A stretch of 64,000 nt of DNA from NCBI RefSeq assembly GCF_004134825.1, contig NZ_SDPN01000002.1:124001-188000 (forward strand). Direction: 5' to 3'. Within the stretch, counting starts at the first letter, position 1. Each line of letters begins with the position of its first letter. Of the stretch, positions 10,401 to 52,086 are shown piece after piece. The stretch comes from Agromyces albus. Its GTDB lineage: Bacteria > Actinomycetota > Actinomycetes > Actinomycetales > Microbacteriaceae. The notes under the pieces were generated by a model. That model saw only the letters and a program-made list of their open reading frames with translations. It was not told where the DNA came from and did no database searches. The translations under genes were made by a program, and so were the position numbers.

Positions 10401-11426
10401 ATGGCGGCGAAGAAGGCCCCGCGTCCGGCCGTGATCGCGGATGTCGCGAAGCTCGCGGGTGTCTCCGTGCCCACCGTGTCGCGGGTGCTCACGGGCGCCG
10501 CGCGCGTGCGCCCCGAGAAGGAACGCCGCGTGCTCGACGCCATCGCGCAGCTCAACTACCGGCCCAGCGCGACGGCGCGAGCCCTCGCGTCGAGGCAATC
10601 GCACACGATCGCGATCATCGCGGGCAACACCTCGCAATACGGCTACGCCGAGACGATCCGCGGGGTCGAAGAGGAGGCGAGGGCCGACGGCTACACGGTG
10701 ACGATCACCGTCGTCGAGACCACCGACCCCGACGAGGTCGAACGCGCGGTCGCCCTCGTGCTCGACCAGAGCCCGGCCGGCGTCGTCGTGCTGAAGTTCG
10801 ACCCGCCGGGCGTCGCGGTGCTCACGAGCCTGCCCCGCGACATCCCGATCGTCGCCGTCTCGGGCGTGAAGTCGCGCGACGTGCCGCAAGCGGTGCTCGA
10901 CGAGAGCCGCGCGGCTGAAGCGCTCACCGAGCATCTGCTCTCGCTCGGGCATCGCACCGTGCACCATGTGCGGGTCCCGCCCTCACGGCGTGAAGACGGT
11001 CGCACCACCGGGTGGCGGCGCGCGCTGAAGCGCGCCGGTGTCGAGCCGCCCGAGCTCTACGAAGCGACCTGGGCGCCCGAATCGGGCCGCGTCATCGGCA
11101 AGGAGATTGCCCACAACCCCGGGGTCACCGCGGTGTTCTGCGGCAACGACGAGATCGCGATGGGCGTCATCAAGGGGCTCCGCGATGCGGGCCTGAGCGT
11201 GCCCGAAGACGTCAGCGTCGTCGGCTTCGACGATCACCCGCTCGCGGCGATGTGGTCGCCGGCGCTCACGACCGTGCGTCAGGACTTCGGTGGCCTCGGC
11301 GCCCGCGCGTTCGAGCTGCTGCGCGGCGCGATGAGCGGCGAAGTGGTGCGGCGCACGTCGTCGGCGCTTCCCGAGCTCGTCATCCGCGAGAGCTCTGCCG
11401 CGCCGCGCCCGCTCGCTGAATCCTGA
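10401..11426 (+). CDS. LacI family transcriptional regulator (system 1)
   Basis: A 341-residue repressor. The N-terminal helix-turn-helix is VIADVAKLAGVSVPTVSRVL, followed by the hinge RPSATARALAS, whose Leu normally intercalates at the operator's central CG. The periplasmic-binding-protein-like effector domain starts at HTIAIIAGNTSQYGY. The ATG has a GAGGAG site close upstream. It sits between the importer and the GH43-GH51 gene. It is the obvious candidate to bind the three TGATAnCGnTTTCA sites near 4.7 kb or the tandem sites at 11.5 kb; which of these it binds cannot be decided by reading. Confidence 0.9.
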   Translation: MAAKKAPRPAVIADVAKLAGVSVPTVSRVLTGAARVRPEKERRVLDAIAQLNYRPSATARALASRQSHTIAIIAGNTSQYGYAETIRGVEEEARADGYTVTITVVETTDPDEVERAVALVLDQSPAGVVVLKFDPPGVAVLTSLPRDIPIVAVSGVKSRDVPQAVLDESRAAEALTEHLLSLGHRTVHHVRVPPSRREDGRTTGWRRALKRAGVEPPELYEATWAPESGRVIGKEIAHNPGVTAVFCGNDEIAMGVIKGLRDAGLSVPEDVSVVGFDDHPLAAMWSPALTTVRQDFGGLGARAFELLRGAMSGEVVRRTSSALPELVIRESSAAPRPLAES

Positions 11427-11495: not shown

Positions 11496-11523
11496 TGTTA
11501 GCGTTCACATGTTAGCGCTCACA
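11496..11523. promoter_or_regulatory. Two abutting LacI-type operators before the GH43-GH51 gene
   Basis: Two 14-bp sites, TGTTAGCGTTCACA and TGTTAGCGCTCACA, are directly adjacent and differ at one base. Both are imperfect palindromes with a central CG. A possible promoter (TTAGCG, 16 nt, CACAAT ending at 11525) lies inside them, so occupation should block transcription. Confidence 0.6.
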
Positions 11524-11610
11524 ATGCGAACGTGGCGTGGCGACGGCACTTGATGCCGCCGCCACGTTCGCATGAGCGCGCCCTCCTCGAAGACGAGAGA
11601 AAGGTCGAAG

Positions 11611-14600
11611 ATGACCAGGTCCAGCACCACTGCTTCACCTCCGGTGGCCGAACAGCCAGACCGGCGACGACGGATGAGCAGGCAGTCGGGCGTCGCACTG
11701 TGCGCCGCCCTCACGCTCGCCATCATCGCGCCGGCCGCCGCCGTCGCGATGCCGATCGTCGCGACCGCCGTCACCGCACCGGCTGACGTCGCAGCGAGCG
11801 ACGCGGCGGGCGTGAGTATCCCCAACCTCGACGACGTGCGCGGCAACATCACCCTTCCCGCGACCGGATCCGGCGGCTCCTCGCTCGCTTGGATCTCGAG
11901 CGACCCGGCCGTCATCTCCGCCGACGGACTCGTCGAGCGCCCGGCCAACGGGTCCGATCCCGCCACCGTCACGCTGCAGGTGACCGCGACCTTCGGCGAC
12001 TCGACCGCGACGCACGACTACGTCGCGACGGTGACCCCGGCGCCCCTCGACGAGCCGCTCGCCGCCTACTTCTTCCCGCACTTCGTCGGTGAGTCCACCC
12101 CCGACGGCGAGGAGATCTCCTTCGCCGCGAGCGTCGGCAACGACCCCGAGGAATGGATGAGCCTCAACGACGGCGAGTCCGTGCTCGCCTCGACCCTCGG
12201 CGAGCAGGGCCTGCGCGACCCGTTCGTCATCCGCTCGCCCGAAGGCGACCGATTCTTCCTGCTCGCGACCGACCTGAAGATCTACGGCGGTGGCGATTTC
12301 GGCACCGCCCAGGAGACCGGCAGCCGCTCGATCATGGTGTGGGAGTCCGACGACCTCGTGAACTGGTCGGAGCAGCGCGAGATCGTCGTGTCGCCCGAGA
12401 CCGCGGGCAACACGTGGGCTCCCGAGGCCTACTGGGACGAGGCGAACGAGGAGTACATCGTGTACTGGGCCTCGGCGCTCTACCCCGAGAATGTTCCCGC
12501 AGACCAGCGCGACATCGGCACGAGCTACCAGCGCATGATGTACGCGACCACCCGCGACTTCGTCACCTTCTCGGAGCCGCAGGTCTGGATCGACGAACCG
12601 CAGGGCGCAGGCCGCGGCATGATCGACTCGACCGTCGCCCTCGAGAACGGCGTCTACTACCGCTTCACGAAGGACGAGTCGGACTTCACGGTGCGCGAAG
12701 AGCAGTCGACCGAGCTGCGCCGAACCCAGGGCGTCGTCGACGGCGACGGCTGGGGGCTCATCGCCGAGCACATCGGCGTCGGCCAGCCGAACCCCTGGGG
12801 TGGCACCTTCACCAACGGTGAGGGACCTTCGGTCTTCAAGTCGAACACGGATGACTCGTGGTACCTGCTGCAGGACCAGCCGTCGTACCACGGCGGCGAG
12901 GGCTACATGCTCTTCGAGAGCTCCGATCTCGCGAGCGGCGCGTGGACCGCGGTGCCCGACGCCGAACTCCCCGAGAGCCCGCGCCACGGCACGGTGCTTC
13001 CGGTGACGGCGAGCGAGTACCAGCGGCTCCTCGAGACCTACCAGCCCGACGCGCTCGTCGACGGCGTGACCTTGACCCCGGATTCGGCGACGCTGTCACC
13101 GGGCGGGACGGCCGCCTTCGAGGCATCCGTCACCCCGGTGACCGCGGAAGACCGCAGCGTCACCTGGAGCTCGAGCGATGAGTCCGTGGCCACCGTCGAC
13201 GCCGCAGGCGTCGTGACCGCGATCGCCGACGGCAGCGCGACGATCACCGCACGCGCGGTGAGCGGCGCAGAGGGAACCGCGACGATCACGGTGGAGACGG
13301 CGGCGGCTCCCGAGCTTCCCGCCGACGCATGGGTCGACGAGTTCGACGGCGAGACGCTCGACGGTCGATGGGCGATCGAGGGCGAGGTGCCCGACACGTG
13401 GTCGCTCACCGAGAACCCCGGCGCGCTCACCGTGCACTCGCAGCGCGGCGACACCTACCAGGGCGACAACACGGCCAAGAACGTGTTCCTGGTCGACGTG
13501 CCCGCCGGCGACTTCACCGCGTTCACCTCGGTGACCGGCGCGGTCAGCCGCGACTTCCAGGGCGCGGGAATTCTCGTCATGAAGGACTTCGACAACTACG
13601 TGCGCGCGGGCCTCACCAACGTGAGCTTCGCGCCGGGTGGCCCCACCATCATCGAGAACGGCGTCGAGCAGGGCGCGGTCTACAGCTCGACCTTCACGGC
13701 CCGACCCGGATCGACGCACGAGTACCTGCGGGTGCAGCGCACCGGCGACGTGGTCGTGACGAGCTACTGGACGGGCCACGAGTGGGCCGAGGCCGCACGC
13801 GCGACCGTGGGCTTCGACGCCGCGCGAATCGGCCTCTATGCGCTGGCCGCCGGTTCCGCGCCGAGCCACGAGGTGACGTTCGACTACTTCGCGCTCGTGG
13901 CGCCCGAGGGTGCCGACATCGTGCCCGAGGGCATGTTCACGTTCGAGGGATCCGGCGACACCCGCCACCTCACCGCCGGTGACGGCGGCGCGCTCCGACT
14001 CGACGACACGCGGCCGCTCGAGCAGCTCGCGCTGACGGCGACCGAGGTCGAGGGTGACGCGGGCGGCGAGGCATCCGCTGCTCGTCCCGTGGTGATCCGC
14101 GACTCGGCGAGCGATCGCCCGCTCATCGTCGACGGCGACCGGCTCGCCCTCGGCGCTGACGGCGCGGAGGCGACCGAATTCCGTCTGACGGACGTCGGCG
14201 GGAGCAAGGCAGCCCTGCACACGGTCGACGGCCGCTTCATCGTGCTCGGCGACGGCGGCGCGCTCGTCATCGGCGACGAGTCGGATGCCGCACGGCTCAC
14301 GATCGTGCCGGTCGAGATCACCGATCACACGATCGAGATCGACACCGACGCGCCCCGCACCGAGATGAGCGATGACCTCTACGGCATCTTCTACGAGGAC
14401 ATCAACTACGCGGCCGACGGCGGAATCTACGCCGAGCTCGTGCGCAACCGCTCCTTCGAGTTCAACACCGCCGACAACCGGGCGTTCAACGGGCTGACGG
14501 CGTGGGAGAAGGTAGAGCGGGGCGCCACCGGCTCCATCGCGGTGGGCGCCGACCGTGCGCGCTGGCTGAACGACTCGAACCGCGCGTCGCTCACCATCCA

Positions 14601-17091
14601 GGCGAACGGCGCGGGCGTCGGCGTGCGGAACATCGGGTTCAACCGGGGCTTCGCGCTCGAGGAGGGCGAGAGTTACGACTTCTCGGTGTGGGCGCGGTCG
14701 GCGACGGCACAGCAGCTCACGGTCGCGGTCGAGAACACGGCCGGCACCGAGCAGTTCGCGCTCGGCACGGTCGAGGTGGCCGGCGACGACACCTGGCGCA
14801 AGGTCGAGGTGCGTCTCACGTCGAACGCGACGACGGATGCCGGGCGCCTCGTGCTGCTCGGCGGTGCCGCGGGTTCGCTGCAGCTCGACATGGTCTCCCT
14901 CTTCCCGGTCGACACCTGGGTCGGGCCGGTGAACGGACCGAGCGTGCTGCGCAAGGACCTCGCCGAGAAGGTCGCCGAGCTCGATCCGTCGTTCCTGCGC
15001 TTCCCCGGCGGTTGCGTCACGAACGTCGGCACGTTCAACACGTACCTCGAGTCCGACGGCCAGGACCGCCGTCGCACGTACCAGTGGAAGGAGACCATCG
15101 GCCCCGTCGAGGAACGCCCGACCAACTGGAACTTCTGGGGCTACAACCAGTCGTACGGCCTCGGCTACCTCGAGTACCTGAAGTGGGCCGAAGACCTCGA
15201 CGCGACGCCGCTGCCTGTGGTGTCGGTCGGCGCCAACGGCTGCGGCAGCACGATCCCCGAGATGACCGACCAGGCGCGCATCGATCGCTGGGTGCAGGAC
15301 ACGGTCGACCTCATCGAGTTCGCGAAGGGCGACGTGACGACCGAGTGGGGCGCGAAGCGCGCCGAACTGGGACATCCGGAACCCTTCGACCTGCGCTACA
15401 TCGGGCTCGGCAACGAGGAGAACACCGACACCTTCCAGGCGAACTTCCCGCAGTTCCGCGACGCGGTCGCTGCCGCCTGGCCGGATGTCACGATCATCTC
15501 GAACTCCGGGCCGGATGACACGGGGGCGCGCTTCGACGAGCTGTGGCAGTTCAACCGGGAGCAGGGCGTCGACATGGTCGATGAGCACTACTACAACGAC
15601 CCGTCATGGTTCCTGCAGAACTCCGAGCGGTACGACTCGTACGACCGCGAGGGTCCGCACGTGTTCCTCGGCGAGTACGCGTCGCGCGGCAACACCTTCG
15701 CGAACGCCCTCTCGGAGGCGGCCTACATGACCGGCCTCGAGCGCAACTCCGACGTCGTGGAGCTCGCCTCCTACGCGCCGATGTTCGCGAACGAGGACCA
15801 CGTGCAGTGGGCGCCCGACATGATGTGGTTCGACAACGACGAGTCGTGGGGCTCGGTGAACTACTACACCCAGCAGATGTTCATGACGAACGTCGGCGAC
15901 GAGGTGGTTCCGTCGACCCACACCGAAGCGGATGCCGCATCCGACCTCGACGGCGGGGTCTTCCTGTCGACGTGGAACACGAGCGCGGCCTACGACGACG
16001 TGCGGGTGACCGACAACACGACGGGCGACGAGCTCTACACCGAGTCGTTCGACGGCACGGCTGACCCGTGGGCCCCGGTCGCCGGATCGTGGGCGGTCAC
16101 GGGCGGCGAGTACGTGCAGTCGTCGGCCACGACGACGGATGCCCGTTCGCTCAGCCCCGACGCGTACGCGCGGGACTGGTCGAACTACACGCTCGAACTC
16201 GACGCTCGCAAGACGTCGGGTGCGGAGGGCTTCCTCATCGGCTTCGCAGCCGGCGGTCCGAACGACTTCTACTGGTGGAACCTCGGCGGCTGGAACAACA
16301 CCCGCTCGGTGTTGCAGCACGCTGCCGGCGGCTCGGCCGGCGAGGTCGCGGCGCTGGAGGGCAAGGGCGTCGAGACCGGGCGTGACTACCACGTGAAGAT
16401 CGTGGTGAACGGCTCGACGATCGAGCTCTACCTCGACGGGGTGCTGCAGCTCAGCTACACCGAGCCGGCAGCGAAGGGCCTCTACCAGGTGGTCACGCGC
16501 GATGCCGAGACCGGCGAGCTCCGGCTCAAGGTCGTGAACCCGACGGGTTCGACGGCGCGCACCCAGGTGTCGGTCGCGGGCAGCCTCGAGATCGCCGACG
16601 AGGTGGGCGTGACCGAGATGGTCGGTGCGCCCGGTGACATGAACACGAAGGCCGATCCCGAGAACCTCGTTCCCGTCGATCGCGAGTGGTCGGGAGGCGG
16701 GAACGAGTTCAGCTACGACTTCCCGGCGTACTCGATCACCTTCCTGTCGCTCAGCGAGAAGCCGCATCCGAGCTGCGAGGTGAGCTACACCCTGGAGGGG
16801 GACTCGAAGAAGGCCTTCTCGGCCGACCTCACGATCACGAACACGGGTGACGCGCAGTACACCGCGTGGGAGCTCGGGTTCGAGTTCGCCGAGAAGCAGA
16901 CGCTGCGCAACGGCCACGACGCGTGGTGGCAGCAGAACGGCGCTGCGGTCACGGCGAACAACCTGCCGTGGAACGGCACGATCCAGCCCGGTGAGACCGT
17001 CGAGCTCGGGTTCAACGGCAGGGTGAACGGGGGTGGGAACACCGAACCGGCCGCGTTCAGCGTGAACGGCGACGCCTGCACGGTGAAGTAG
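11611..17091 (+). CDS. Secreted multimodular GH43-GH51 enzyme with CBM2
   Basis: A 1826-residue secreted protein with two catalytic modules. After a signal anchor (about 22-50) come an atrophied Ig-like repeat (67-150), a GH43 five-bladed propeller (150-480; acidic blocks RDPFVIR, MIDST and GEGPS), a Big_2 domain (485-564), a DUF1349-like lectin fold (570-770) and a beta-trefoil-like segment (770-905). A GH51 alpha-L-arabinofuranosidase follows with CBM4_9-like N-terminal part, acid/base E1269 in GLGNEENTD and nucleophile E1355 in FLGEYAS. Its C-terminal sandwich is interrupted by a LamG-like insert (about 1470-1624). A CBM2 ends the protein (1721-1826, Cys near both ends). The ATG at 11611 is preferred to 11572 because GAGAGAAAGG precedes it. 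The likely role is arabinose removal from polysaccharides outside the cell. Confidence 0.85.
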   Translation: MTRSSTTASPPVAEQPDRRRRMSRQSGVALCAALTLAIIAPAAAVAMPIVATAVTAPADVAASDAAGVSIPNLDDVRGNITLPATGSGGSSLAWISSDPAVISADGLVERPANGSDPATVTLQVTATFGDSTATHDYVATVTPAPLDEPLAAYFFPHFVGESTPDGEEISFAASVGNDPEEWMSLNDGESVLASTLGEQGLRDPFVIRSPEGDRFFLLATDLKIYGGGDFGTAQETGSRSIMVWESDDLVNWSEQREIVVSPETAGNTWAPEAYWDEANEEYIVYWASALYPENVPADQRDIGTSYQRMMYATTRDFVTFSEPQVWIDEPQGAGRGMIDSTVALENGVYYRFTKDESDFTVREEQSTELRRTQGVVDGDGWGLIAEHIGVGQPNPWGGTFTNGEGPSVFKSNTDDSWYLLQDQPSYHGGEGYMLFESSDLASGAWTAVPDAELPESPRHGTVLPVTASEYQRLLETYQPDALVDGVTLTPDSATLSPGGTAAFEASVTPVTAEDRSVTWSSSDESVATVDAAGVVTAIADGSATITARAVSGAEGTATITVETAAAPELPADAWVDEFDGETLDGRWAIEGEVPDTWSLTENPGALTVHSQRGDTYQGDNTAKNVFLVDVPAGDFTAFTSVTGAVSRDFQGAGILVMKDFDNYVRAGLTNVSFAPGGPTIIENGVEQGAVYSSTFTARPGSTHEYLRVQRTGDVVVTSYWTGHEWAEAARATVGFDAARIGLYALAAGSAPSHEVTFDYFALVAPEGADIVPEGMFTFEGSGDTRHLTAGDGGALRLDDTRPLEQLALTATEVEGDAGGEASAARPVVIRDSASDRPLIVDGDRLALGADGAEATEFRLTDVGGSKAALHTVDGRFIVLGDGGALVIGDESDAARLTIVPVEITDHTIEIDTDAPRTEMSDDLYGIFYEDINYAADGGIYAELVRNRSFEFNTADNRAFNGLTAWEKVERGATGSIAVGADRARWLNDSNRASLTIQANGAGVGVRNIGFNRGFALEEGESYDFSVWARSATAQQLTVAVENTAGTEQFALGTVEVAGDDTWRKVEVRLTSNATTDAGRLVLLGGAAGSLQLDMVSLFPVDTWVGPVNGPSVLRKDLAEKVAELDPSFLRFPGGCVTNVGTFNTYLESDGQDRRRTYQWKETIGPVEERPTNWNFWGYNQSYGLGYLEYLKWAEDLDATPLPVVSVGANGCGSTIPEMTDQARIDRWVQDTVDLIEFAKGDVTTEWGAKRAELGHPEPFDLRYIGLGNEENTDTFQANFPQFRDAVAAAWPDVTIISNSGPDDTGARFDELWQFNREQGVDMVDEHYYNDPSWFLQNSERYDSYDREGPHVFLGEYASRGNTFANALSEAAYMTGLERNSDVVELASYAPMFANEDHVQWAPDMMWFDNDESWGSVNYYTQQMFMTNVGDEVVPSTHTEADAASDLDGGVFLSTWNTSAAYDDVRVTDNTTGDELYTESFDGTADPWAPVAGSWAVTGGEYVQSSATTTDARSLSPDAYARDWSNYTLELDARKTSGAEGFLIGFAAGGPNDFYWWNLGGWNNTRSVLQHAAGGSAGEVAALEGKGVETGRDYHVKIVVNGSTIELYLDGVLQLSYTEPAAKGLYQVVTRDAETGELRLKVVNPTGSTARTQVSVAGSLEIADEVGVTEMVGAPGDMNTKADPENLVPVDREWSGGGNEFSYDFPAYSITFLSLSEKPHPSCEVSYTLEGDSKKAFSADLTITNTGDAQYTAWELGFEFAEKQTLRNGHDAWWQQNGAAVTANNLPWNGTIQPGETVELGFNGRVNGGGNTEPAAFSVNGDACTVK

Positions 17092-23753: not shown

Positions 23754-26504
23754 TCACTTCAGCACGTCCACACCGTCGAGCGTGAACGTGCCGCTCACCA
23801 CGGTGACCGCGATCGTGTGCTCGCCGCTCCCGAGGCCGCGCAGCCAGTGCGAGGTCTGTCGCACGCCGGTCGCGCCCACCGTCACTCGCGTCGGCGGCGC
23901 CCCGTCGACGGAGACGTCGATCGTCGCGGCAGCCGTCGCCCCGAAGAGGTTGATCCCGCTCCCGCTGAAGGGCAGGGAGACGGATGCCCCGGCCGCGAGC
24001 TCGTGGTTCGTGCGGTTGTAGTGCGCGAACCCGACCTGGCGGAACGTGACCGGCCCGTTGTACGCGAGCGACGCCGTGTCGTCGAGCTTCGTGGACTCCC
24101 ACGCGAGCCCGTCGACCGGGGTGATCGCGAGGTTGTCCCAGTTCGTCTCGTAGTATCCCGAGACGAGTGAGATGCGGCCCGTCATGACCGGGCTCACCGA
24201 GGTGTCGGTCCACGTCGTGAGCTCGGTGCCGTCGACCGACGGCGTGAGGGCGTTCTCCGCGGCCGTGAGCGAGATCCGGTGCCACGCCCCTGCGTCGAAG
24301 TCGGCGATGGTGCCGGATGCCACGACGGCGTCGCGCTTGCGGAGCTCCCACGCGCCGGCAGGCGACACCCGCACCGCGTATGCCGCGAGGTCGGAACCCT
24401 GCGTCACCACCTGTCGCACGCCGAGGCCGGCGAAGTTCGCCAGCGTGGCATCCTTCACCTCGGAGTCGAACTTCACGTCGACGGCCGCGGTGTAGTTCGC
24501 CCACGTGTGGTCGCCGAGGATCGTCGCGGGCGCGTCGGTCGCCAGCTTGTTCTGGCTTCCGTCGCCCCAGACGTTCCAGGTGTAGGGCCGGTTGTCGGCG
24601 GTGATGCGTTGCTGGAGCACGTTGTCGTGCCCGGCCTCGGCGGAGCCCACCACCTCGAAGGCGCCGTTCTGGTCGGCCGTGTAGCGGGGCGTGCCGCCGC
24701 GACGCTCGAGGTACGACATGCTCACGCCGCCGACGTCTTCAGCGGGGTAGCCCGCGTACTCGAAGTCGTCGGTGTAGGGCAGTTCGAGCGGGCTGTTCTC
24801 GGCGGTCGAGGCGTAGTCGCCGCTCGCGTACGCCGTCGTCGAGTCGGTGAGCCCGTCGGCGAGCGACGAGATCGTGAGGATCGAGTACGGCGCGACCTCG
24901 ACGCGGTAGACGACGTAGCTCGTGCCGTCGGCGCCGGTCTCGGTGCGCACCGGCTTGATGTAGCCGATCTGCTGGAACCAGTCCGCATCGTAGGGTTCGC
25001 CGGACTCCGGGCCTGTCGTCTCCCACAGGTGCAGGGGAGTGTTCTTGGTGACCCCCAGGTCGGCGACCTTGACCTCGAAGTGGCGGGGCTTGGCGGTGTT
25101 GTTCGCGTGCACCTGGGTGAAGTCGGGCTTGTGCGCTCCGCGGCCCGGGTCGTCGGCTGCGGCCGGGTCGAGTGGCTCGCGCAGCGTCAGCACGGTGCGG
25201 GTGCTCGACCCGACGGCGGTGCCGCCGTCGGCGAACGTGCCGTCGCCGCCGCTCGCGCCCTCGATGTACTCCCAGCCCTGGTCGATGAACTGCATGAAGT
25301 GGCGCACCAGCACGATGCCGACGCCGCCCTCGTAGTAACCCGACCACGGGTCGGAGGCGCGGATGAGGTGCTTCGGCGAGTAGGAGGAGCCCTCGTACAG
25401 GGCGCTGACCGCCGGCTGGAAGAGGAACGAGGTCATATGCGCGGGGTTCGCGCCCGACCCCGACCACTTGTACGCGTTGATGAACCGGTCGGCGATGTCG
25501 ACCGCGCCGACCGTGCCGCCGATGCCGCCCATCTCGGGTTGTGCGGTGAGCCGGTACTCGGGGTCGATCATCGGGGCCACGCCCTCGGAGTAGATGACCT
25601 CCTTGCCGAACTCCTTGTTGAGCCGGGTCAGGTTGGGGCCGCCGCCGATCGTGTAGTGGATGCCGATGGCGTCGACGTGCTCGAGGGCCTCGGGGCTCGC
25701 GAGGATCGCTCCCGCGACGCCCTCGCCGTTCCGGTAGGAGTCGAGCGCGACGATCTCGATGTCGCCGTAGTCGTATCGGGCGTCGGATGCCGCTGCGTCG
25801 GCCTCGAGGCGCTTGGCGACCTCGATCGTCCACGCGAGCTCGCTGGCGATGTACTTGGCGTTGACCTCGTTCTGCGACGGGCTGATGTAGTCGAACTTCA
25901 CGCCGTAGGTGTCGTACGCGGCGTCGATGGTCTCCTTGTACCACTGGTACCGCGCGTCGGTCTGATTGCCCGTCCACGAGGGCTCGGCCCACCGCAGCGC
26001 CTCGACCTTGAGGTCAGGGTTGATCGTCTTCGCGTCGGCGATCAGCCGGAAGCCGGCGCCGCGCAGCACGTTGGCCGGCTCGTCGGCGCTGCGCTTCGTC
26101 GCGGGCTCCGCGCCCGACGACGTGTTCACGTCGGCGCCGAGCTCGACCTTGATGTGCATCAGCCCCGCACCGGTGTCGGTGTTGAACAGCATGTTCAGGA
26201 TCCGCCAGTACGCCTCGGGGTTCTCCTCGCGGTAGTCGAGCAGCAGCCGCGACGTGTTGTTGCACGACACCGAGCCGAACCCGCCGAACACGTTGAAGGC
26301 GCTCCCGTCGGGCGCGCGTTCGACGTCGTCGCCGTCGACGATGAGCTCCTTCCAGTCGACGGAGTCGTCACCGAACTCGAGCTTGGGGGGCTCCGGGTCA
26401 CTCGTCTCGAGCGCGATCGCCGACGGCGCCGCTGCGAGCGACGCGGCGATCAGCGCCCCTGCGGCGGCGGCGGTGGCGAGCCTCCACCTGGATTTCTGGG
26501 TCAT
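23754..26504 (-). CDS. Secreted GH59 galactocerebrosidase-family beta-galactosidase
   Basis: A 916-residue secreted enzyme with an Ala-rich signal peptide (about 1-30). Its plan matches animal galactosylceramidase: TIM barrel (about 45-330) with acid/base E213 in SPSQNEVN and nucleophile E307 in VIYSEGVAP, a beta-sandwich, and a lectin (LamG-like) domain from about 640 to 810 that ends ISLVSGYYETNWDNLAI. A galactose-binding-like domain (about 815-916) is added at the C-terminus. Family members release beta-linked galactose. With its secreted location and GH30 neighbour, arabinogalactan or galactolipid are both plausible substrates. A GAAAGGA ribosome site precedes the ATG. Confidence 0.87.
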   Translation of the reverse strand: MTQKSRWRLATAAAAGALIAASLAAAPSAIALETSDPEPPKLEFGDDSVDWKELIVDGDDVERAPDGSAFNVFGGFGSVSCNNTSRLLLDYREENPEAYWRILNMLFNTDTGAGLMHIKVELGADVNTSSGAEPATKRSADEPANVLRGAGFRLIADAKTINPDLKVEALRWAEPSWTGNQTDARYQWYKETIDAAYDTYGVKFDYISPSQNEVNAKYIASELAWTIEVAKRLEADAAASDARYDYGDIEIVALDSYRNGEGVAGAILASPEALEHVDAIGIHYTIGGGPNLTRLNKEFGKEVIYSEGVAPMIDPEYRLTAQPEMGGIGGTVGAVDIADRFINAYKWSGSGANPAHMTSFLFQPAVSALYEGSSYSPKHLIRASDPWSGYYEGGVGIVLVRHFMQFIDQGWEYIEGASGGDGTFADGGTAVGSSTRTVLTLREPLDPAAADDPGRGAHKPDFTQVHANNTAKPRHFEVKVADLGVTKNTPLHLWETTGPESGEPYDADWFQQIGYIKPVRTETGADGTSYVVYRVEVAPYSILTISSLADGLTDSTTAYASGDYASTAENSPLELPYTDDFEYAGYPAEDVGGVSMSYLERRGGTPRYTADQNGAFEVVGSAEAGHDNVLQQRITADNRPYTWNVWGDGSQNKLATDAPATILGDHTWANYTAAVDVKFDSEVKDATLANFAGLGVRQVVTQGSDLAAYAVRVSPAGAWELRKRDAVVASGTIADFDAGAWHRISLTAAENALTPSVDGTELTTWTDTSVSPVMTGRISLVSGYYETNWDNLAITPVDGLAWESTKLDDTASLAYNGPVTFRQVGFAHYNRTNHELAAGASVSLPFSGSGINLFGATAAATIDVSVDGAPPTRVTVGATGVRQTSHWLRGLGSGEHTIAVTVVSGTFTLDGVDVLK

Positions 26505-26515
26505 GCGGGATTCCT

Positions 26516-26527
26516 TTCAACGTTGAA
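26516..26527. promoter_or_regulatory. Palindromic operator-like site at the GH59 start
   Basis: TTCAACGTTGAA is a perfect 12-bp palindrome with a central CG. It overlaps the GH59 ribosome binding region, 12 bp before the start codon, so it could act as an operator on a short leader. Confidence 0.4.
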
Positions 26528-26721
26528 GGGAGCGTGGATGCCTCGATCAGCACTGACCTGGGCGATCCAGACCTACGCGACGCGAACGTATCGACCCTCG
26601 AACACGGCGCACAACGAAAGGAACGCATTCGCTCGCACTCGAGCCCAAGCGAACATTCGGGCGGAGCGGAGCTGCACTGCCGAGGAATGTGCAGCCCGAA
26701 ACATCCGTCATCCTCTTCCCA

Positions 26722-26737
26722 ATGTTGACGTCAACAT
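26722..26737. promoter_or_regulatory. LacI-type operator 1 before the GH30 gene
   Basis: ATGTTGACGTCAACAT is a perfect 16-bp palindrome with a central CG. It contains a TTGACG that could serve as a -35 element. Confidence 0.6.
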
Positions 26738-26756
26738 GTAGCCTCGGGACTCGAGC

Positions 26757-26772
26757 GTGTTGACGTGAACAC
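26757..26772. promoter_or_regulatory. LacI-type operator 2 before the GH30 gene
   Basis: GTGTTGACGTGAACAC repeats the first site with one mismatch in the dyad. The two centres are 35 bp apart, and this site lies 36 bp before the start codon. Confidence 0.6.
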
Positions 26773-26807
26773 GCGCGATCTTCCAATGGCGAAAGAGGAC
26801 GACGTCA

Positions 26808-29800
26808 ATGACGATGTACGGCAGACGGCTCACCGCGCTCCTGACGAGCGCGGCACTTGCAACCGGCGCCCTGCTGGCGGCCCCGATCGGCGAGGCCGCG
26901 CCAGCCGCCGCCGCGGACGGCGTCACCATCACGCCGAATCCCTGGTACGCGGGTGAGGCATTCGAGGGTTGGGGGACGAGCCTCGTCTGGTTCGCGAACG
27001 CCACGGGCAACTACCCCGAAGAGCTGCGCGAGGAGCTCTACCAGGCGGTCTTCGGTGAAGACGGCCTCGACCTCAACATCGCGCGCTACAACATCGGCGG
27101 CGGCAACGCCTCCGACGTGCAGGACTACTTGCGTCCGGGCGGCGCGGTCGAGGGCTGGTGGGCACCGAACCCCGACGGCGACGCCGGCACGCACGGGGGC
27201 GTCTCCACGAAGTACGCCGACCGCAACGCGCTTCTCGCGGCCTGGGATGCCGACGACCCCGCCTCCTACGACTGGTCGGCCGACGAGACGCAGCGCTGGT
27301 GGGTCGAGCGACTCGCCGCCGAGGGTCAGATCACGCACTGGGAGACGTTCGCCAACTCCGCGCCGTACTTCATGACCGAGAGCGGCTACGTCTCGGGTGG
27401 CTTCAACTCCTCTGCCGAACAGCTGAAGCCCGCCGCCGAGGCGCAGTTCGCGAAGTACCTCGTGAACGTCACGGAGCACATCGAAGACGAATACGGGATC
27501 GAGGTCGACACCCTCGATCCCTTCAACGAGCCGAACACCAACTACTGGGGCACGACGCTGAGCAACGGCAAGCCCGTGGGCGGGCGCCAGGAGGGCATGC
27601 ACATGGGGCCGGCCCGTCAGGTCGCGCTCATCGACGACGTGCGCGCCGCCCTCGACGACGCGGCATCCACGACTGAGGCCGGACTCTCGGCGATGGACGA
27701 GACGAACCCGGGCATCTTCGCGACGAACTGGGCGGGCTACCCCGCCGCCACGCGCGACAAGGTCGACCGCATGAACGTGCACACCTACGGCACCTCGGGC
27801 CGGCTCGTCGTGCGCGACCTCGCGAAGCAAGCCGACACCGACCTGTGGATGAGCGAGATCGAGGGCAACTGGGTCAGCGGCTACAACCCCGTCAACATCG
27901 AGAACGGCCTCGGCATCGCCGGCCGCATCATGGACGACCTGCGTGAGCTCGAGCCGAAGGCCTGGGTGCTGTGGCAGCCGGTCGAAGACCTCTACAACAT
28001 GGAGCCGCAGGGCGAGAACCTGAACTGGGGATCGATCTTCATCGACCTCGACTGCCAGCCGTATGAAGAGGCGGAGGGCACCGTCTGGAAGTCCGCTCGC
28101 CGCGTCGCCGACGCGGGCGGCAACTCTGCCGCGGTCGCACCGTGCGGCGTCGAGATCAACTCGAAGTTCAACACGATCCGCAACTTCACGAAGTTCATTC
28201 AGGAGGGCGACCACCTGATCGCGATCGACGACGTCTCGAGCACCGCGGCCGTGCGGGCCGATGGCACGGGAGCCACGATCGTGCACCGCAACACGTCGGC
28301 ATCCGAGCGCCAGGTCACGATCGACCTCTCCCGCTTCGGTGACATCGCCGAGGGCGCCACGGTCACCCCGGTCGTCACGACGCAAGCCGAGTCGGCGGAT
28401 GCCCCGACCTCCAATGCACTCGTCGAAGGCGCTCCCGTCACGATCGACCGCACGGCGCGCACCGCCACCGTGACGGTACCGGCCAAGTCGGTCACGACGT
28501 TCGTGATCGACGGGGTCTCAGGCGTCGCGGCGGATGCCCCGGCGCTCGTCGACGGGCACCGCTACCAGCTCGTCGGCACGCAGAGCGGCAAGGCGTTCAC
28601 CGCCGCCGGATCCACGACGGCCACGTCGATCACGGGTTTGACGACGGATGCCGCGAAGGCCGCCAAGCAGGTCTGGACGGTGCACGAGGTCGCCGCCGGA
28701 GAGCGCGAGGCGACGAAACGCGTCGTGCTCGAGGCATCCGACGGCCGTGTGCTCGGCGCCACGAGCGCTGGCACCGACCTCCGCCAGGTGGCCCCGGATG
28801 CCGCGGCGCTCGAGCCCGCCACCCGCTGGATCGTGAGCACGACCGACGGCCGCCGCTACACGCTCGTGAACGAGAAGCTCGCGCTCTCGCTCGACGTGAA
28901 CGGCCAGTCCACCGCCGAGGGCGCCGGAGTCGGCGTCTACGGCTCGAACGGCGGTGGCAACCAGTCGTGGGCGCCGCGCGATCTCGCGCCGCTCGCCGAC
29001 CAGACGGTCGCGGCACGCACGCTCGTGGGGGTGCCGCCCGTGCTGCCCGAGACAATCGTGCCGCGCTACTCGTGGGGCGCCGGCGCACCGGTCGCCGTCA
29101 CGTGGCAGCTGCCGGATGACGCGGCGTGGGCCGAGAGCGGTCGGGTCGAGGTGCCCGGCACGCTGACCGACATCTTCGGGCAGGCCATCGAGGTCACCGC
29201 GCTCGTCGACGTCGGCGGGCTCACGGCCACCGATCCTGTCTCGATCACCGTGGCCGAGGGCGCGTCGCTCAGCGGCGTGCAGTCGGAAGCCCCCGCCACC
29301 GTGCCCGCTCGCGTGGGTGCCTCGGAGAACGCCTTCGACGTGCCCGTGGTGTGGGACTGGACCGGGGTTTCCTCCGATCAGTTCGCGTCGGTCGGCGTCG
29401 TGCACGTCGCCGGCGTCGCGACGGCCGACGGAGCCGAGCTGCCCGCGCAGCTCGCCGTGCTCGTGACCGAGGGGACGCTCCGCAACTTCAATCCCGATGC
29501 CGGCACGACGGCCTCGGCGAGCTCGACCGAGTCGGGCTACCCCGTCGACCGCACGCGAAACGGCGACATCGGCGACAAGGGCTGGTCGAACTGGGTGTCG
29601 AGCAACAAGCCGACCCAGAGCACGCTGACCTACCAGTACGCGGCCGCCCACCAGGTCGAGCGCGTCGCGGTGCACTTCTACCGCGACGGCACGACGAGCT
29701 GGGCGCAGACCATGAAGGTCGAGGTGCGCGGTGCGAACGGCGTGTGGGCTCCGGCCCCGGGTTGGGAGACGGCGCAGCCAGTCGTGTCGCCGGCCGACGG

Positions 29801-30461
29801 CAGCGCACCGGTCGTGGTCGCGGAGTTCCCGCCGATCACCGCCACGGGCGTGCGCGTCGTGATGAACGCCTACGCGAACACGCACCTCATCGTCTCCGAG
29901 GTGCAGGTGTTCGAGTCGGCGGAGTCGCCCGCGGCCGTCAGCGACCTCGCGGCGCTCCGGCTCGACGGCGCGCTCATCGACGGCTTCGACCCGGCGACGA
30001 CCGCGTACGAGCTCGACGTCGACGGCGGCCGCCTGCCGCTCGTCGATGCGATCGCCGTGGACTCCGCCGCGAGCGTGCGGATCACCCAGCCGACCACGGC
30101 CAACGGCGGCGTCGCCACGATCGTCGTGACGTCGGCGGATGGCTCGACCGAGAGCCGGTACACGGTCACGATCCGGCGCCACGCCGTGATCGCCGACCTC
30201 CAGATCGTCGAACGGCCGCGCGTCGGGTCGCCCGCGCACGCGACCGCGACGATCGATCCGGGCGACGGCGAGATCGCGTGGCAGTGGTACCTGAACGGCG
30301 AGCCGATCGCCGGCGCCACCGAGCAGAGTTTCACGCCCGAGACGAACGATGCGGGCAAGGAGCTCAGTGTGCGAGTCACGGTGTCGGCCGACGGTGTCGA
30401 GGGTGCGTCGGCTGAGACCGAGCGCCAGCGCATCGTCTCGCTGCACTCGCGCCAGCCCTGA
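26808..30461 (+). CDS. Secreted modular GH30 enzyme, endo-beta-1,6-galactanase-like
   Basis: A 1217-residue secreted enzyme (signal peptide about 1-37). The GH30 barrel and side sandwich span about 40-570, opening with EGWGTSLVWFANATG; the acid/base is E241 in DPFNEPN and the nucleophile E350 in MSEIEGNW. This resembles GH30 subfamily 5, which cuts beta-1,6-galactan side chains of arabinogalactan. Then come a ricin-B-like trefoil (575-725), two Big_4-type domains (733-885), an F5/8-type-C-like domain (893-1036), a cadherin-like sandwich (1045-1125) and a C-terminal Ig-like domain. AGAGGA precedes the ATG by 8 nt. No LPxTG or membrane anchor is seen, so it is probably released or held by its binding modules. 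Confidence 0.85.
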   Translation: MTMYGRRLTALLTSAALATGALLAAPIGEAAPAAAADGVTITPNPWYAGEAFEGWGTSLVWFANATGNYPEELREELYQAVFGEDGLDLNIARYNIGGGNASDVQDYLRPGGAVEGWWAPNPDGDAGTHGGVSTKYADRNALLAAWDADDPASYDWSADETQRWWVERLAAEGQITHWETFANSAPYFMTESGYVSGGFNSSAEQLKPAAEAQFAKYLVNVTEHIEDEYGIEVDTLDPFNEPNTNYWGTTLSNGKPVGGRQEGMHMGPARQVALIDDVRAALDDAASTTEAGLSAMDETNPGIFATNWAGYPAATRDKVDRMNVHTYGTSGRLVVRDLAKQADTDLWMSEIEGNWVSGYNPVNIENGLGIAGRIMDDLRELEPKAWVLWQPVEDLYNMEPQGENLNWGSIFIDLDCQPYEEAEGTVWKSARRVADAGGNSAAVAPCGVEINSKFNTIRNFTKFIQEGDHLIAIDDVSSTAAVRADGTGATIVHRNTSASERQVTIDLSRFGDIAEGATVTPVVTTQAESADAPTSNALVEGAPVTIDRTARTATVTVPAKSVTTFVIDGVSGVAADAPALVDGHRYQLVGTQSGKAFTAAGSTTATSITGLTTDAAKAAKQVWTVHEVAAGEREATKRVVLEASDGRVLGATSAGTDLRQVAPDAAALEPATRWIVSTTDGRRYTLVNEKLALSLDVNGQSTAEGAGVGVYGSNGGGNQSWAPRDLAPLADQTVAARTLVGVPPVLPETIVPRYSWGAGAPVAVTWQLPDDAAWAESGRVEVPGTLTDIFGQAIEVTALVDVGGLTATDPVSITVAEGASLSGVQSEAPATVPARVGASENAFDVPVVWDWTGVSSDQFASVGVVHVAGVATADGAELPAQLAVLVTEGTLRNFNPDAGTTASASSTESGYPVDRTRNGDIGDKGWSNWVSSNKPTQSTLTYQYAAAHQVERVAVHFYRDGTTSWAQTMKVEVRGANGVWAPAPGWETAQPVVSPADGSAPVVVAEFPPITATGVRVVMNAYANTHLIVSEVQVFESAESPAAVSDLAALRLDGALIDGFDPATTAYELDVDGGRLPLVDAIAVDSAASVRITQPTTANGGVATIVVTSADGSTESRYTVTIRRHAVIADLQIVERPRVGSPAHATATIDPGDGEIAWQWYLNGEPIAGATEQSFTPETNDAGKELSVRVTVSADGVEGASAETERQRIVSLHSRQP

Positions 30462-48404: not shown

Positions 48405-49406
48405 TCAGGCCGTCGACTCTCGCGCGACGACGCGGAACGAGCTCACGAACTCGCGCGGCTGCCACTCGGTGTCGCCGGCGATCCGCCGCAACACGAGGTC
48501 GACCGCGAGGGCGGCGACCTCGTCGTGGTCGGGATCGACGGTCGAGAGCCGGGGGATGCTGTACTCGCCCTCCTCGATCGCGTCGAAGCCGATCACGCGC
48601 ACGTCGTCGGGCACCCGCACCCCACGGTCGGCGAGCCCGCGCATGACGCCGAGCGCCACCGTGTCGGTGATGCAGACGACCCCGTCGAATGCGGCGCCGG
48701 AATCGACGAGTCGCTCGGCCGCGCTCCGGCCGCCGGACATCGTGAGCTCGGGGATCCCGACGGAGAGCGCCGGATCGAATTCGACCCCGGACTCCCGGAG
48801 GGCCCGGAGGTAGCCGCCGTGGCGCAGGCTGCTCACGTTCGGGGGCAGCAGGTCGTCGCCCTCGACGATGGCGATGCGCCGGCTGCCTCGCGCGATGAGA
48901 TGCCGCGTCGCCGCGAACGTGCCCTCGACATTCGGGAGGGCGATGTGATCGACCGGGCCCTCGAAGACGGTCTCGCCGAGGATCACCATCGGGAAGTCCA
49001 CTCGCAACAGCTCGCGGTCGGCGGTGCCGAGCCCGACCGCCGAGAGGATGAGGGCGTCGTACATCCGGTTGCGCGACGACACGATCGCGCTGAGCTCGGT
49101 CTCGCGATCGGCGCCCGTCTGCTCGATGACCACGCGGTATCCCGCCGCCGAAGCCCTCGCGATGATGCGGGAGGCGAGCTGGCCGAAGTACGGCCGGTCT
49201 ACCTCGGGCACCGCGAACCCGATCGTGTTCGTTCGCCCGGCCCGGAGGTTCCGGGCCGCGACGTTGACGCGGTACCCGAGGTCGTCGATCGCACGGAGCA
49301 CACGGTCGCGTGTCTCGTCGCGCACGTGCGGATAGTGGTTCAGCACGTTCGACACGGTCATCGTGGAGACGCCCGCGGCCTTCGCGACATCCTGCATCGT
49401 GACCAT
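48405..49406 (-). CDS. LacI family transcriptional regulator (system 3)
   Basis: A 333-residue repressor. The helix-turn-helix is MQDVAKAAGVSTMTVSNVLNHYPHV, the hinge VNVAARNLRAG, and the effector domain begins NTIGFAVPEVDRPYFGQLA. It lies between the GH51 gene (20 bp upstream) and importer operon 3, and two near-identical operators flank the unit, so it almost certainly regulates both. A TAGAGT element 6 nt before its ATG suggests an additional leaderless promoter giving basal repressor. Confidence 0.92.
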   Translation of the reverse strand: MVTMQDVAKAAGVSTMTVSNVLNHYPHVRDETRDRVLRAIDDLGYRVNVAARNLRAGRTNTIGFAVPEVDRPYFGQLASRIIARASAAGYRVVIEQTGADRETELSAIVSSRNRMYDALILSAVGLGTADRELLRVDFPMVILGETVFEGPVDHIALPNVEGTFAATRHLIARGSRRIAIVEGDDLLPPNVSSLRHGGYLRALRESGVEFDPALSVGIPELTMSGGRSAAERLVDSGAAFDGVVCITDTVALGVMRGLADRGVRVPDDVRVIGFDAIEEGEYSIPRLSTVDPDHDEVAALAVDLVLRRIAGDTEWQPREFVSSFRVVARESTA

Positions 49407-49426: not shown

Positions 49427-50959
49427 TCATCCGAGCGTGAGTGAGACGGTCGCGAAGGAGTGCGGCGGAAGCGTGACCCGCAGGCCGCGGTCGTCGGTCT
49501 CGATCGCGGTGAGCTCGGTCGGTGCGACGGCGTCGGGGTTCGACGCGGAGTTGTGCGCCTGGAGCTGGGCCCCGGTCAGCACCCGACCGGTGTGCGCCGT
49601 GACGGCGCGACCCCGCAGGTCGAGCACCACCTCGAGCGGATGCTCCGCATCGAGGTTGCTGAGCGAGATGAGTGCCGTGTCGTCGCGCGTGCTCGCCGAG
49701 GCCGAGAGCACGTCGAGTGGCCGGCCGGCCTCGGTGCGGGTCTCGGGCCGTTCGACGACGTGCACCGAGAGCGACGTCGCGTCGTGGTGCCCACGGTTCA
49801 TCTCGAAGACGTGGTACGTCGGGGTCAGCACGAGCTCGCCCGTCGCCTCATCCGTCAGCAGCATCGCCTGCAGCACGTTGACGGTCTGCGCGATGTTCGC
49901 CATGACGAGCCGGTCGGCGTGCCGGTGGAACACGTCGAAGTGCACGGATGCCACGAGGGCGTCGCGCATCGTGTTCTGCTGGTACAGGAACCCGGGGTTC
50001 GTGCCCGGTTCGACGTCCCACCAGGTGCCCCACTCGTCGAGCACGAGCCCGACCTTCTTGCCGGGATCGTAGGCGTCCATGACCGTCGCATGCGCCGAAA
50101 GCACGCGCTCGACGTCTTGCGCCTTGCCCATGGTCGCGTAGTACTCCTCGGTCGTGAAGGCCGTCGCGCTGCCCTTCTCCGCCCACGTGCCGGCCACCGT
50201 GTAGTAGTGGAATGAGATCGCCTGGAAGATGTTCGTGGGCTCCCGCTGGCAGCCGAGGCAGTTCAGCGACTCCATCAGGGTCCTCGTCCACTTGACGTCG
50301 TCGTCGGACGCCCCCGCGGCGATGCGGTAGAGCGTGTTGCCTCCGTGGTCGCGGCAGAAGGTCGCGTAGCGGCGTGCCTCGTTGGCATAGTGCTCGGCGG
50401 TCATGTTGCCGCCGCAGCCCCACGCCTCATTGCCGATGCCCCAGAACGGCACCTTCCACGGCTCGTCCCGGCCGTTCTCGCGCCGCAGCCGCGCCATGGG
50501 GCTGTCGCCGGCGCGAGTGAGGTACTCGACCCACTCGCTCATCTCCTGCACGGTGCCGCTGCCGACGTTGCCGTTGACGTAGGCGTCGGCGCCGAGCAGC
50601 TCGCAGAGCGCCATGAACTCGTGCGTGCCGAAGTGGTTGTTCTCCTCGACGTCGCCCCAGTTCGTGTTCACCATGCGCGGGCGGTCGGCTTTCGGGCCGA
50701 TGCCGTCGCGCCAGTGGTACTCGTCGGCGAAGCATCCGCCCGGCCACCGGAGGTTCGGGATGTCGATGCGTCGCAGCGCCTCGACGACGTCGGAACGGAT
50801 GCCGCCCTCGTTCGGGATCGGCGAGTCCTCGCCGACGTAGAAGCCGCCGTAGATGCAGCGGCCGAGGTGCTCCGCGAAGTGGCCGTACAGATGGCGACTG
50901 ATCTGGGGTCCTGGCACATCGAGATCGACGACGGCGCGGGCGGTGAGTGGTTCGGTCAC
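49427..50959 (-). CDS. GH51 alpha-L-arabinofuranosidase, cytoplasmic
   Basis: A 510-residue intracellular arabinofuranosidase with no signal peptide. It opens [31 protein letters not shown], typical of the AbfA-like branch of GH51. The acid/base is E178 in WGIGNEAWG and the nucleophile E309 in [10 protein letters not shown]. The length is normal for the hexameric bacterial enzymes. It should release L-arabinose from imported arabino-oligosaccharides. The GTG at 50959 has AAAGGAGAG 8 nt upstream; longer in-frame extensions cross the LysR gene and are rejected. It heads a GH51-lacI unit. Confidence 0.93.
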
Positions 50960-50998
50960 TGCGGGTTCTCTCCTTTGAAACCTCCGGTGGACACCTGA

Positions 50999-51012
50999 CT
51001 GTATCGATAAAG
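50999..51012. promoter_or_regulatory. LacI-type operator before the GH51 gene
   Basis: CTGTATCGATAAAG, 13 of 14 bases identical to the site at 48350-48363. It lies 40 bp from the GH51 start codon, nearly the same distance as in the other operon. Confidence 0.65.
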
Positions 51013-51060
51013 GAGTCGGAAGGGAACTGCGTGCCGGGGGAAGTGAGCCGGGGCGCCGGC

Positions 51061-51984
51061 CTAGGCCGATGGCTGCAGTTGCCGGGGGTCTGCATCGACC
51101 ACCGGCCGGCGCAGCTCCGCCTCGAGGATCTCGAGCAGGAGCGGAGCGGATGCCGCCACAGGGCTGCCCGTGATGGCCGACACGACCCATTGCGGCATCG
51201 AGCCCTGCGGAAGCTGCACCGAGACGAGCCCGGCCGCTTGCGGCTTCGCCGCGACGTGCTGCGGCACGAGCGCCACGCCGAGTCCGCGGTGGATCAGGTC
51301 GAGCAGCGTGTGCACGTCGTTGACCGTGCAGCGCACTCGCCGGCCCACGCCCTGGGCGGCGCACGAGGACTCGTTGAGCGAGCGCACCGCCCACGACTCC
51401 TGGAAGTCGATGAAGTCGAGGTCGCGAAGGTCGGTCCAGTCCACGCGCGCCGAAGCGGCGAGCGGATGCTCCGGCGGGCACAGGAGCACGACCGGCCACC
51501 GGCCGAGCTCGGTGCTCGACACGCGGGTGAGGTGATCGGTGGTGGCGACGAAGGCGACGTCGAGCTCGCCGTCGCGCACCTGCGTGACGAGGTCGTGCGA
51601 ACCGGCCTGGGTGAAGTGGATGTCGACGAGCGGGTACCGACGGCGGAACCGCTCGAGGAGCGACGGCACATCGACGATGCCGAGGCACTGCTCGGCGCCC
51701 ACGCGCAGTGCACCCGAGAGCTCGTTCGTCGCGCGCACGACGGCATCGCGGCCGGCGGTGGCCTGGGCGAGCATGGCGCGAGCGAAGGGGAGCAGCGCGA
51801 GTCCGGCATCCGTCGGCTCGACTCGTCGGGTCGTGCGTGCGAACAACGTGGTGCCGAGCTCGTCTTCGAGGCTGCGGATCGCGGCGGAGAGGCCCGATTG
51901 CGAGACGCTGCACACCGCGGCCGCCCGGGTGAACTGCTGCTCGTCGGCGAGGGCGACGAGGTACTCCATCTGGCGCAGATCCAT
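51061..51984 (-). CDS. LysR family transcriptional regulator
   Basis: A 307-residue LysR regulator. The winged helix-turn-helix is at 1-60 ([44 protein letters not shown]), and the substrate-binding domain runs from about 90 to 295. GGAG precedes the ATG. It is divergent from the first of two aldo/keto reductase genes and probably controls them. Two Cys residues (in ESSCAAQG and RRVRCTV) lie close together in the effector domain, which might allow redox sensing; that is only a suggestion. Confidence 0.9.
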
Positions 51985-52086
51985 TGATCACTCCGGCTTC
52001 TGAATACCATCACTGGTAGTTGTTGGACTTCTAGCTTGGGGCTGCCTAGGGTGAAACGCAACCCACACGACAGGAAAGGCTCATCC

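Follow-up and report, generated by a model that had tools for sequence, protein, structure and literature searches.

A GH43–GH51 protein from Agromyces albus with a LamG-like domain nested in its GH51 sandwich, most likely in circularly permuted order

An 1826-residue protein of Agromyces albus is probably a secreted α-L-arabinofuranosidase with two catalytic centers, in which a LamG-like domain, most likely permuted, is nested inside the GH51 module. Its gene is a single open reading frame at positions 11611–17091 of the forward strand in the window, the stretch of 64,000 nucleotides that was analyzed, and these are the limits proposed in the initial annotation. The domains, the catalytic letters, the nesting and the distribution of the insert were computed, and the strand order of the insert was addressed by profile tests. 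The frame could also start earlier, at 11572, although ATG 11611 seems, by eye, better served by a ribosome site (AAAGG).

Modular organization and gene neighborhood

All features of the gene lie on the forward strand. After a hydrophobic stretch resembling a secretion signal (about residues 26–50, by eye), from which secretion is predicted, the chain carries an aBig_2 domain (residues 72–142, 11824–12036; Pfam, 67.8 bits), a GH43_22-like module (151–476, 12061–13038), a Big_2 domain (483–557, 13057–13281; Pfam, 59.2 bits) and a GH43_C2/DUF1349 concanavalin-like domain (576 to about 762, 13336–13893; Pfam). The latter matches 3o12 with Z 21.8 and an rmsd of 2.6 over 176 aligned residues (model 515–708). 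Residues 770–905 (13918–14325), in which no Pfam family scored above its cut-off, were assigned by profile search to a fascin-like β-trefoil. The corresponding profile (A7) matches designed β-trefoils with a best E value of 1.1e-6, and also weakly matched unrelated immunoglobulin chains; Fascin was touched by 5 of 21 members. Then come the GH51 barrel with the first sandwich strand (906–1436, 14326–15918; Pfam, alignment and structure match), which includes a CBM4-like domain (942–1082, 14434–14856; CBM_4_9, 38 bits), the LamG-like insert (1437–1623, 15919–16479) and the resumed C-terminal sandwich (1624–1716, 16480–16758; Pfam, MgGH51 alignment and model). The chain ends with a CBM2 (1722–1823, 16774–17079), for which PF00553 scores 79.8 bits, above its gathering cut-off of 24. 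Pfam, NCBIfam and the profiles thus bear out the description of two catalytic modules joined in one chain with Big_2, lectin-like, trefoil-like and CBM2 domains. Relatives show the same architecture again, so that a chance reading is dismissed.

A genome scan confirmed at least 575 of 594 stretches as relatives. The 80 best were kept, all actinobacterial according to their records; being the most similar relatives, they form a biased set. Among them, the C2 domain occurs without an N-terminal GH43 in 44 and with one in 11, while 13 have an N-terminal GH43 without detected C2 and 12 have neither. The C2 domain is mostly present without N-terminal GH43 and therefore goes rather with GH51; counting the GH43_C2-like domain with the GH43 enzyme is not favored by this distribution.

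The GH43 module, predicted from its family to be inverting, is best described by NCBIfam model NF052546 (BAD_1527, GH43_22), with a score of 196.8 bits against a cut-off of 500 for this model. A profile of the module (A4) retrieved no PDB sequence at E 0.01. The fold match rests on structure comparison, for example with 3qef (Z 20.7, rmsd 2.9, 237 residues aligned); the top structure rows, with an rmsd near 31, span two domains. In BaAbf43C, D58 is the base, D194 the modulator and E259 the acid (PMC11264647). D203, D339 and E404 were equated with these residues by motif and equal spacing rather than by direct alignment with BaAbf43C. All 24 aligned relatives whose GH43 is N-terminal conserve these three residues; the 25th GH43-bearing relative (L058), where the module is C-terminal, lies outside this alignment.

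In the GH51 part, ASD1_dom (1121–1357, 190.8 bits) and Alpha-L-AF_C (1357–1708, 103.3 bits, profile positions 15–165 read across the insert) both score above their Pfam cut-offs. The barrel and the C-terminal β-sandwich of GH51 are hence both present, as seen by Pfam and by the match to 6zps. The CBM4-like domain is the extra domain that defines GH51 clade II, or subfamily 2 (PMC6087011, PMC10461819), to which the module belongs. E929, E1269 (acid/base) and E1355 (nucleophile) align with MgGH51 Glu23, Glu351 and Glu429, of which Glu351 is reported as acid/base and Glu429 as nucleophile, Glu23 being also named (PMC7604909). The GNE and GEY strings are found in all 80 best relatives. At the sequence level no dead catalytic site was seen, and both the GH43 and the GH51 center look intact.

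It could nevertheless be that a single center matters in nature, the other being carried along with no useful activity on the substrate encountered there. A hybrid GH51–GH43 enzyme from termite gut, with 22.22 U/mg on pNP-Araf versus 22.85 for the stand-alone GH51 from that clone (PMC3662619), lends itself to such a view. The unbroken retention of the GH43 triad and of the GH51 motifs among relatives, together with the occurrence of the fusion in more than one lineage (see below), makes it unlikely.

Upstream of the gene, two exact copies of a LacI-type operator-like site, TGTTAGCGTTCACA and TGTTAGCGCTCACA, stand in tandem at 11496–11523 (+). With up to two mismatches the pattern has four matches against 0.42 expected, one of which is the second site read on the opposite strand; as the pattern was derived from the same sequence, this count is descriptive. 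A LacI-like sequence, recognized by eye, lies in the reading frame that ends at 11426, and control of the gene by such an upstream regulator is predicted. On its 5′ side the gene has a melibiase-type gene, a solute-binding protein and a permease as neighbors, while GH59 and GH30 enzymes are encoded downstream, past other genes. These GH59-type and GH30-type genes (23754–30461) are divergent, the GH30-type one having RicinB, Big_4 and F5/8C domains, and the expected role of the pair is likely galactan degradation. Overall, the neighborhood would fit local control, uptake of the freed sugars and galactan-bearing polymers as likely substrates. The window also holds a second GH51-type enzyme (49427–51991, reverse strand; Alpha-L-AF_C, 161.1 bits), adjoining a LacI regulator (48405–49406) and a permease.

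Nesting and strand order of the LamG-like insert

MgGH51 (6zps), the nearest solved relative, aligns on both sides of the insert: its residues 10–527 correspond to 916–1436, and 535–624 to 1624–1714. Where the Agromyces protein has about 187 residues (1437–1623) in the C-terminal sandwich, MgGH51 has seven. The insert starts directly after VVPST. In MgGH51 (alignment) and in four insert-less relatives (by eye), the VVPST-like strand runs straight into a YQVVTRD-like strand. An AlphaFold2 model of residues 906–1715, built on 56 sequences, has a mean pLDDT of 87.7 and a pTM of 0.86. By blocks of ten residues, pLDDT is at least 83 over 1446–1625, 76 in the linker block 1436–1445 and below 50 in four short stretches of the barrel. 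The best PDB match of the model is 6zps (Z 41.2, rmsd 2.4, 586 of 627 residues aligned), and the Foldseek and VIA lists contain mostly whole GH51 enzymes and related barrels.

Since the chain returns to the GH51 sandwich at 1624–1716, the LamG-like domain is nested inside this sandwich and not placed in tandem. A plain tandem arrangement, with a LamG domain separating two pieces of GH51, is rejected, because a single MgGH51 chain accounts for both pieces and has seven residues in between. The split of the GH51 C-terminal sandwich by a LamG-like domain, proposed in the initial annotation along with structure prediction as a check, is hence supported by the alignment and by a confident model. 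The two observations named there as contrary, a tandem LamG and a dead site, were not made at the sequence and model level. The boundary, on the other hand, has to be moved. FLSTWNTSAAYDDVRVTD and YQVVTRDAETGELRLKVVN had been taken together as one domain. As MgGH51 resumes at about 1624, the stretch from 1437 onwards belongs to the insert, and with it FLSTWNTSAAYDDVRVTD, which matches the last strands of the inserted fold and is best read as its displaced C-terminal strand segment.

The insert is LamG/DUF1080/CBM66-like and, as judged from profiles, most likely circularly permuted, the last strands of the fold coming first. Segment GGVFLSTWNTSAAYDDVRVT (residues 1448–1467, 15952–16011) would then represent the C-terminal strands. 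In the whole protein, the Pfam family 3keto-disac_hyd (DUF1080, PF06439) matches residues 1477–1640 with 28.3 bits (cut-off 26.8). In its native order the insert reaches 27.0 bits and covers profile positions 3–156 of 187, short of the whole domain; once permuted, it reaches 32.9 bits and positions 3–186. Permutation likewise raises the score from 34.0 to 41.7 bits in one relative (L099) and from 29.9 to 38.4 in another (L088), and in the three permuted sequences the end of the match shifts from about 156 to 186. Shuffled tails had no such effect: six on the window's insert gave 27.2–28.3 bits, five on that of L099 gave 31.5–33.0, and none extended past position 160.

As a single sequence the insert has no significant match in the PDB, and a profile, made in native order from 29 inserts, was needed. 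The nearest solved sequence relative is then the CBM66 of levanase (4b1l, 4b1m, 4azz), with E values of 1.2e-5 to 1.6e-5 for the native order and 3.8e-7 at best for the permuted one. CBM66 binds fructan. The insert lacks the canonical strand order of CBM66: native profile positions 45–184 fall on chain residues 6–140, followed by positions 12–30 on residues 144–162, that is, in swapped order, the small piece scoring −1.0 bits alone. The permuted profile matches in one piece up to residue 162, and scores rise from 28.3 to 33.1 bits (4b1l) and from 28.0 to 33.3 (4b1m). A Paenibacillus domain of canonical order (L167), found by similarity to the insert, behaves in the same way: the native profile splits into swapped pieces of 53.7 and 1.8 bits, while the permuted one matches in one piece with 56.6 bits.

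As a control, the tail columns were shuffled in 300 profiles. The permuted score was reached by 4 of the 300 on CBM66 (one outlier at 39.0 bits), by 1 on the Paenibacillus domain and by 2 on another domain, L123; on two further domains, L124 and L019, it was equalled by 29 and 27. Laminin_G_3 (PF13385) does not discriminate on the window's insert (native 22.4 bits, permuted 24.0, shuffled 24.0–26.3), and PF21708 and PF12248 on L099 each had a shuffle equal to the permuted order. These non-discriminating profiles make the permuted reading slightly less sure and an ordinary strand order slightly likelier.

A search of 5134 open stretches in 168 records gave nine matches outside the GH51 filter. 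Two of them turned out to be GH51 inserts, L148 and L128 (Niallia), in which the native order is better, as expected (30.7 versus 18.5 bits for L128). Among the seven other domains, the permuted profile is better in three (L167, L124, L019), equal or slightly worse in L121 (29.2 native, 29.0 permuted) and L120 (29.7 and 27.8), and the native one is better in L122 (30.0 versus 24.5) and L123 (25.4 versus 15.2). The matches of L120, L121 and L122 stop short of the tail. In L123, the junction LFDDVKVTDHRTGEVILSESF is of the same kind as the junction inside the insert. There, a LamG-like unit is joined to a second start by a short linker, VTDHRTGEVIL, like the linker inside the permuted insert. 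L123 could thus be a possible intermediate, hinting at how the permutation arose.

If the insert had an ordinary strand order, FLSTWNTSAAYDDVRVTD would be a strand of the GH51 sandwich, as first annotated. Superficially, it does resemble the genuine GH51 strand found in relatives that lack the insert (LFASAVYDKNKNELIVKVAN in L129), and part of the profile tests fail to discriminate. Such a reading is nonetheless very improbable: in MgGH51 and in the insert-less relatives the VVPST-like strand is directly followed by the YQVVTRD-like one, segment 1448–1467 completes PF06439 when placed at the end but not when shuffled, and shuffles rarely equal the permuted score on CBM66 or on the Paenibacillus domain. 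The completion of PF06439 and the improved CBM66 match are what make circular permutation the most likely reading.

Distribution of the insert and of the fusion

An insert lies between the two GH51 pieces in all 80 of the best relatives (out of at least 575). In a survey of the class, ASD1_dom matched in 34 of 296 genomes and 30 loci were examined, a set that leaves out two matches of 117–120 bits and several weak ones. The insert is present in 24 of the 26 strong loci (about 130 bits or more), the exceptions being L161 and L162; none was seen in the four weakest loci (24–27 bits). The insert is therefore not peculiar to the 1826-residue protein. In a sample of the phylum, 5 of 198 genomes have a strong match to the insert and 12 have any match. 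The gene itself is patchy in the genus, with 4 of 37 genomes, the window's included, matching the whole GH51 query at E 0. In one relative, 98% identical (L136, genome G020), the LamG-like insert is interrupted by an in-frame TAG, corresponding to a broken gene or a sequencing error.

Outside Actinomycetota, where the sample consisted of plasmid records, eight regions were examined, namely seven GH51 relatives and one Paenibacillus protein that resembles, by eye, a pectate lyase. From the alignment, inspected by eye, the Parabacteroides and Niallia relatives (L127, L128) have the insert in the same order, one Curtobacterium relative (L131) has a degenerate insert and L129, L130, L132 and L133 have none. 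The counts of 80 of 80 and 24 of 26 argue for the insert as a trait of the GH51 lineage and not of the GH43 fusion.

GH43 is N-terminal in 24 of the 80 best relatives and C-terminal in one (L058); two have the set of GH43, C2, trefoil, GH51 and CBM2. A quick tree was built from 81 GH51 rows, with SH-aLRT as its sole support measure and with the columns of the insert retained. It explains the N-terminal fusion by two changes, one for a clade of 23 rows (SH-aLRT 100) and one for two Demequina rows, and the three fusion states together need three. Compared with the window's GH43 module, that of Demequina L104 shows 63% identity and that of L058 62%. In the Curtobacterium plasmid pC1a (L131, 973–4193), the unfused counterpart is a pair of separate GH43 and GH51 genes that overlap by 4 bases, the GH43 being 39% identical. 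The insert would hence be an old part of the GH51 lineage, and the GH43 fusion a younger one whose state changed more than once. The recurrent pairing of GH43_22-like and GH51 modules, fused in both orders or encoded by adjacent genes, suggests that both activities are needed together. The same genome also encodes a paralogue of 1532 residues (L134, 1282–5880, contig C24), whose GH43 module is 50% identical to that of the window; by eye, its LamG-like, aBig-like and second GH43-like parts give the layout of BlArafE.

Putative function and comparison with known systems

The inverting GH43_22-like and retaining clade II GH51 centers would strip differently linked or crowded arabinofuranosyl groups from one plant polysaccharide, for which arabinan and type II arabinogalactan are the likeliest candidates. 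As reported for BlArafE (PMC8939339), one center may trim the groups that block the other. CBM2, perhaps helped by the C2 concanavalin-like domain and the trefoil, would anchor the enzyme to the cell wall.

In the insert, all 56 of the 56 rows share E1539, W1555, W1556, N1557, G1559, G1560 and N1563 without variation; the single Bacteroidota relative and the single Bacillota relative that were aligned lack the WWN motif in their inserts. Sugar binding by the insert is plausible, with chances that we rate somewhat above even on the strength of these residues and of analogy with other LamG domains, and an active positioning of the GH51 center by the insert is less likely than binding. Speaking against binding, the CBM4-like domain of MgGH51 showed no binding site. 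By analogy, the N-terminal LamG domain of a GH146 β-L-arabinofuranosidase raises activity 5.8-fold on larch arabinogalactan and 1.7-fold on arabinan; on gum arabic the gain is 1.1-fold, and on an oligosaccharide activity falls 1.6-fold (PMC10850190). The insert may also be a spacer or stabilizing domain devoid of sugar site, targeting being left to CBM2, C2 and trefoil. Its almost constant length (183–190 residues in 56 of 56 rows) would suit this role, whereas the dense invariant motif suggests a site in the actinobacterial group and the gain of the GH146 enzyme on polysaccharides points the same way; a spacer thus has a real chance of being right, though below even. We also consider, more tentatively and as rather unlikely, an undescribed carbohydrate-binding family: a permuted LamG/CBM66-like sandwich, excised out of register from an array of tandem LamG units and grown into the GH51 C-terminal domain, whose invariant E..F..WWN.GG.N would bind an arabinofuranose-decorated chain and present it to the GH51 pocket.

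Sugar-binding accessory domains are, as a rule, arranged like beads on a string. In this protein, such a domain seems integrated into the scaffold of the enzyme with its strand order rotated, an arrangement that appears to have become fixed across a large GH51 lineage of actinobacteria. Should the insert bind substrate, it would be a natural design for the rigid fixing of a binding module to a catalytic core.

In titles and abstract openings of the open-licence literature, we found no description of a LamG-like or permuted insert in GH51, and the permuted insert is, within that scope, undescribed. GH43 and GH51 domains are tabulated in PMC11921329, and the GH51 enzymes reported from Cellulomonas fimi have no bearing on the insert (PMC5892457). 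One small subfamily of GH51, with 55 sequences, is described as carrying a CBM66, with mention of GH127 fusions, while for subfamily 2 an N-terminal domain is the only one reported (PMC10461819). This small subfamily resembles our protein in combining GH51 with a CBM66-type module; the description available gives neither its position nor any permutation.

The termite-gut hybrid CBM4–GH51–GH43 (clone G12) is active on pNP-α-L-arabinofuranoside, its two centers not having been separated (PMC3662619). Like the Agromyces protein, it combines a GH51 with a CBM4-like domain and a GH43 in one chain; unlike it, GH43 follows GH51, the authors assign it to Bacteroides, and the available part of its description mentions neither an insert nor a CBM2. 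BlArafE (BLLJ_1850), a surface protein with LamG and Ig-like domains, also has two arabinofuranosidase centers, one of them GH43_22, that act cooperatively on gum arabic arabinogalactan protein, but its second center is GH43_34 and not GH51 (PMC8939339). MgGH51 shares the CBM4-like domain, in which no binding site was seen (PMC7604909), the aligned catalytic residues and a fold that superposes over 586 of 627 residues; it has neither the LamG-like insert in its C-terminal sandwich nor the fusion. The levanase CBM66 resembles the insert in sequence and has the canonical strand order. Compared with these systems, the fusion and the nesting are each variants of already known kinds.
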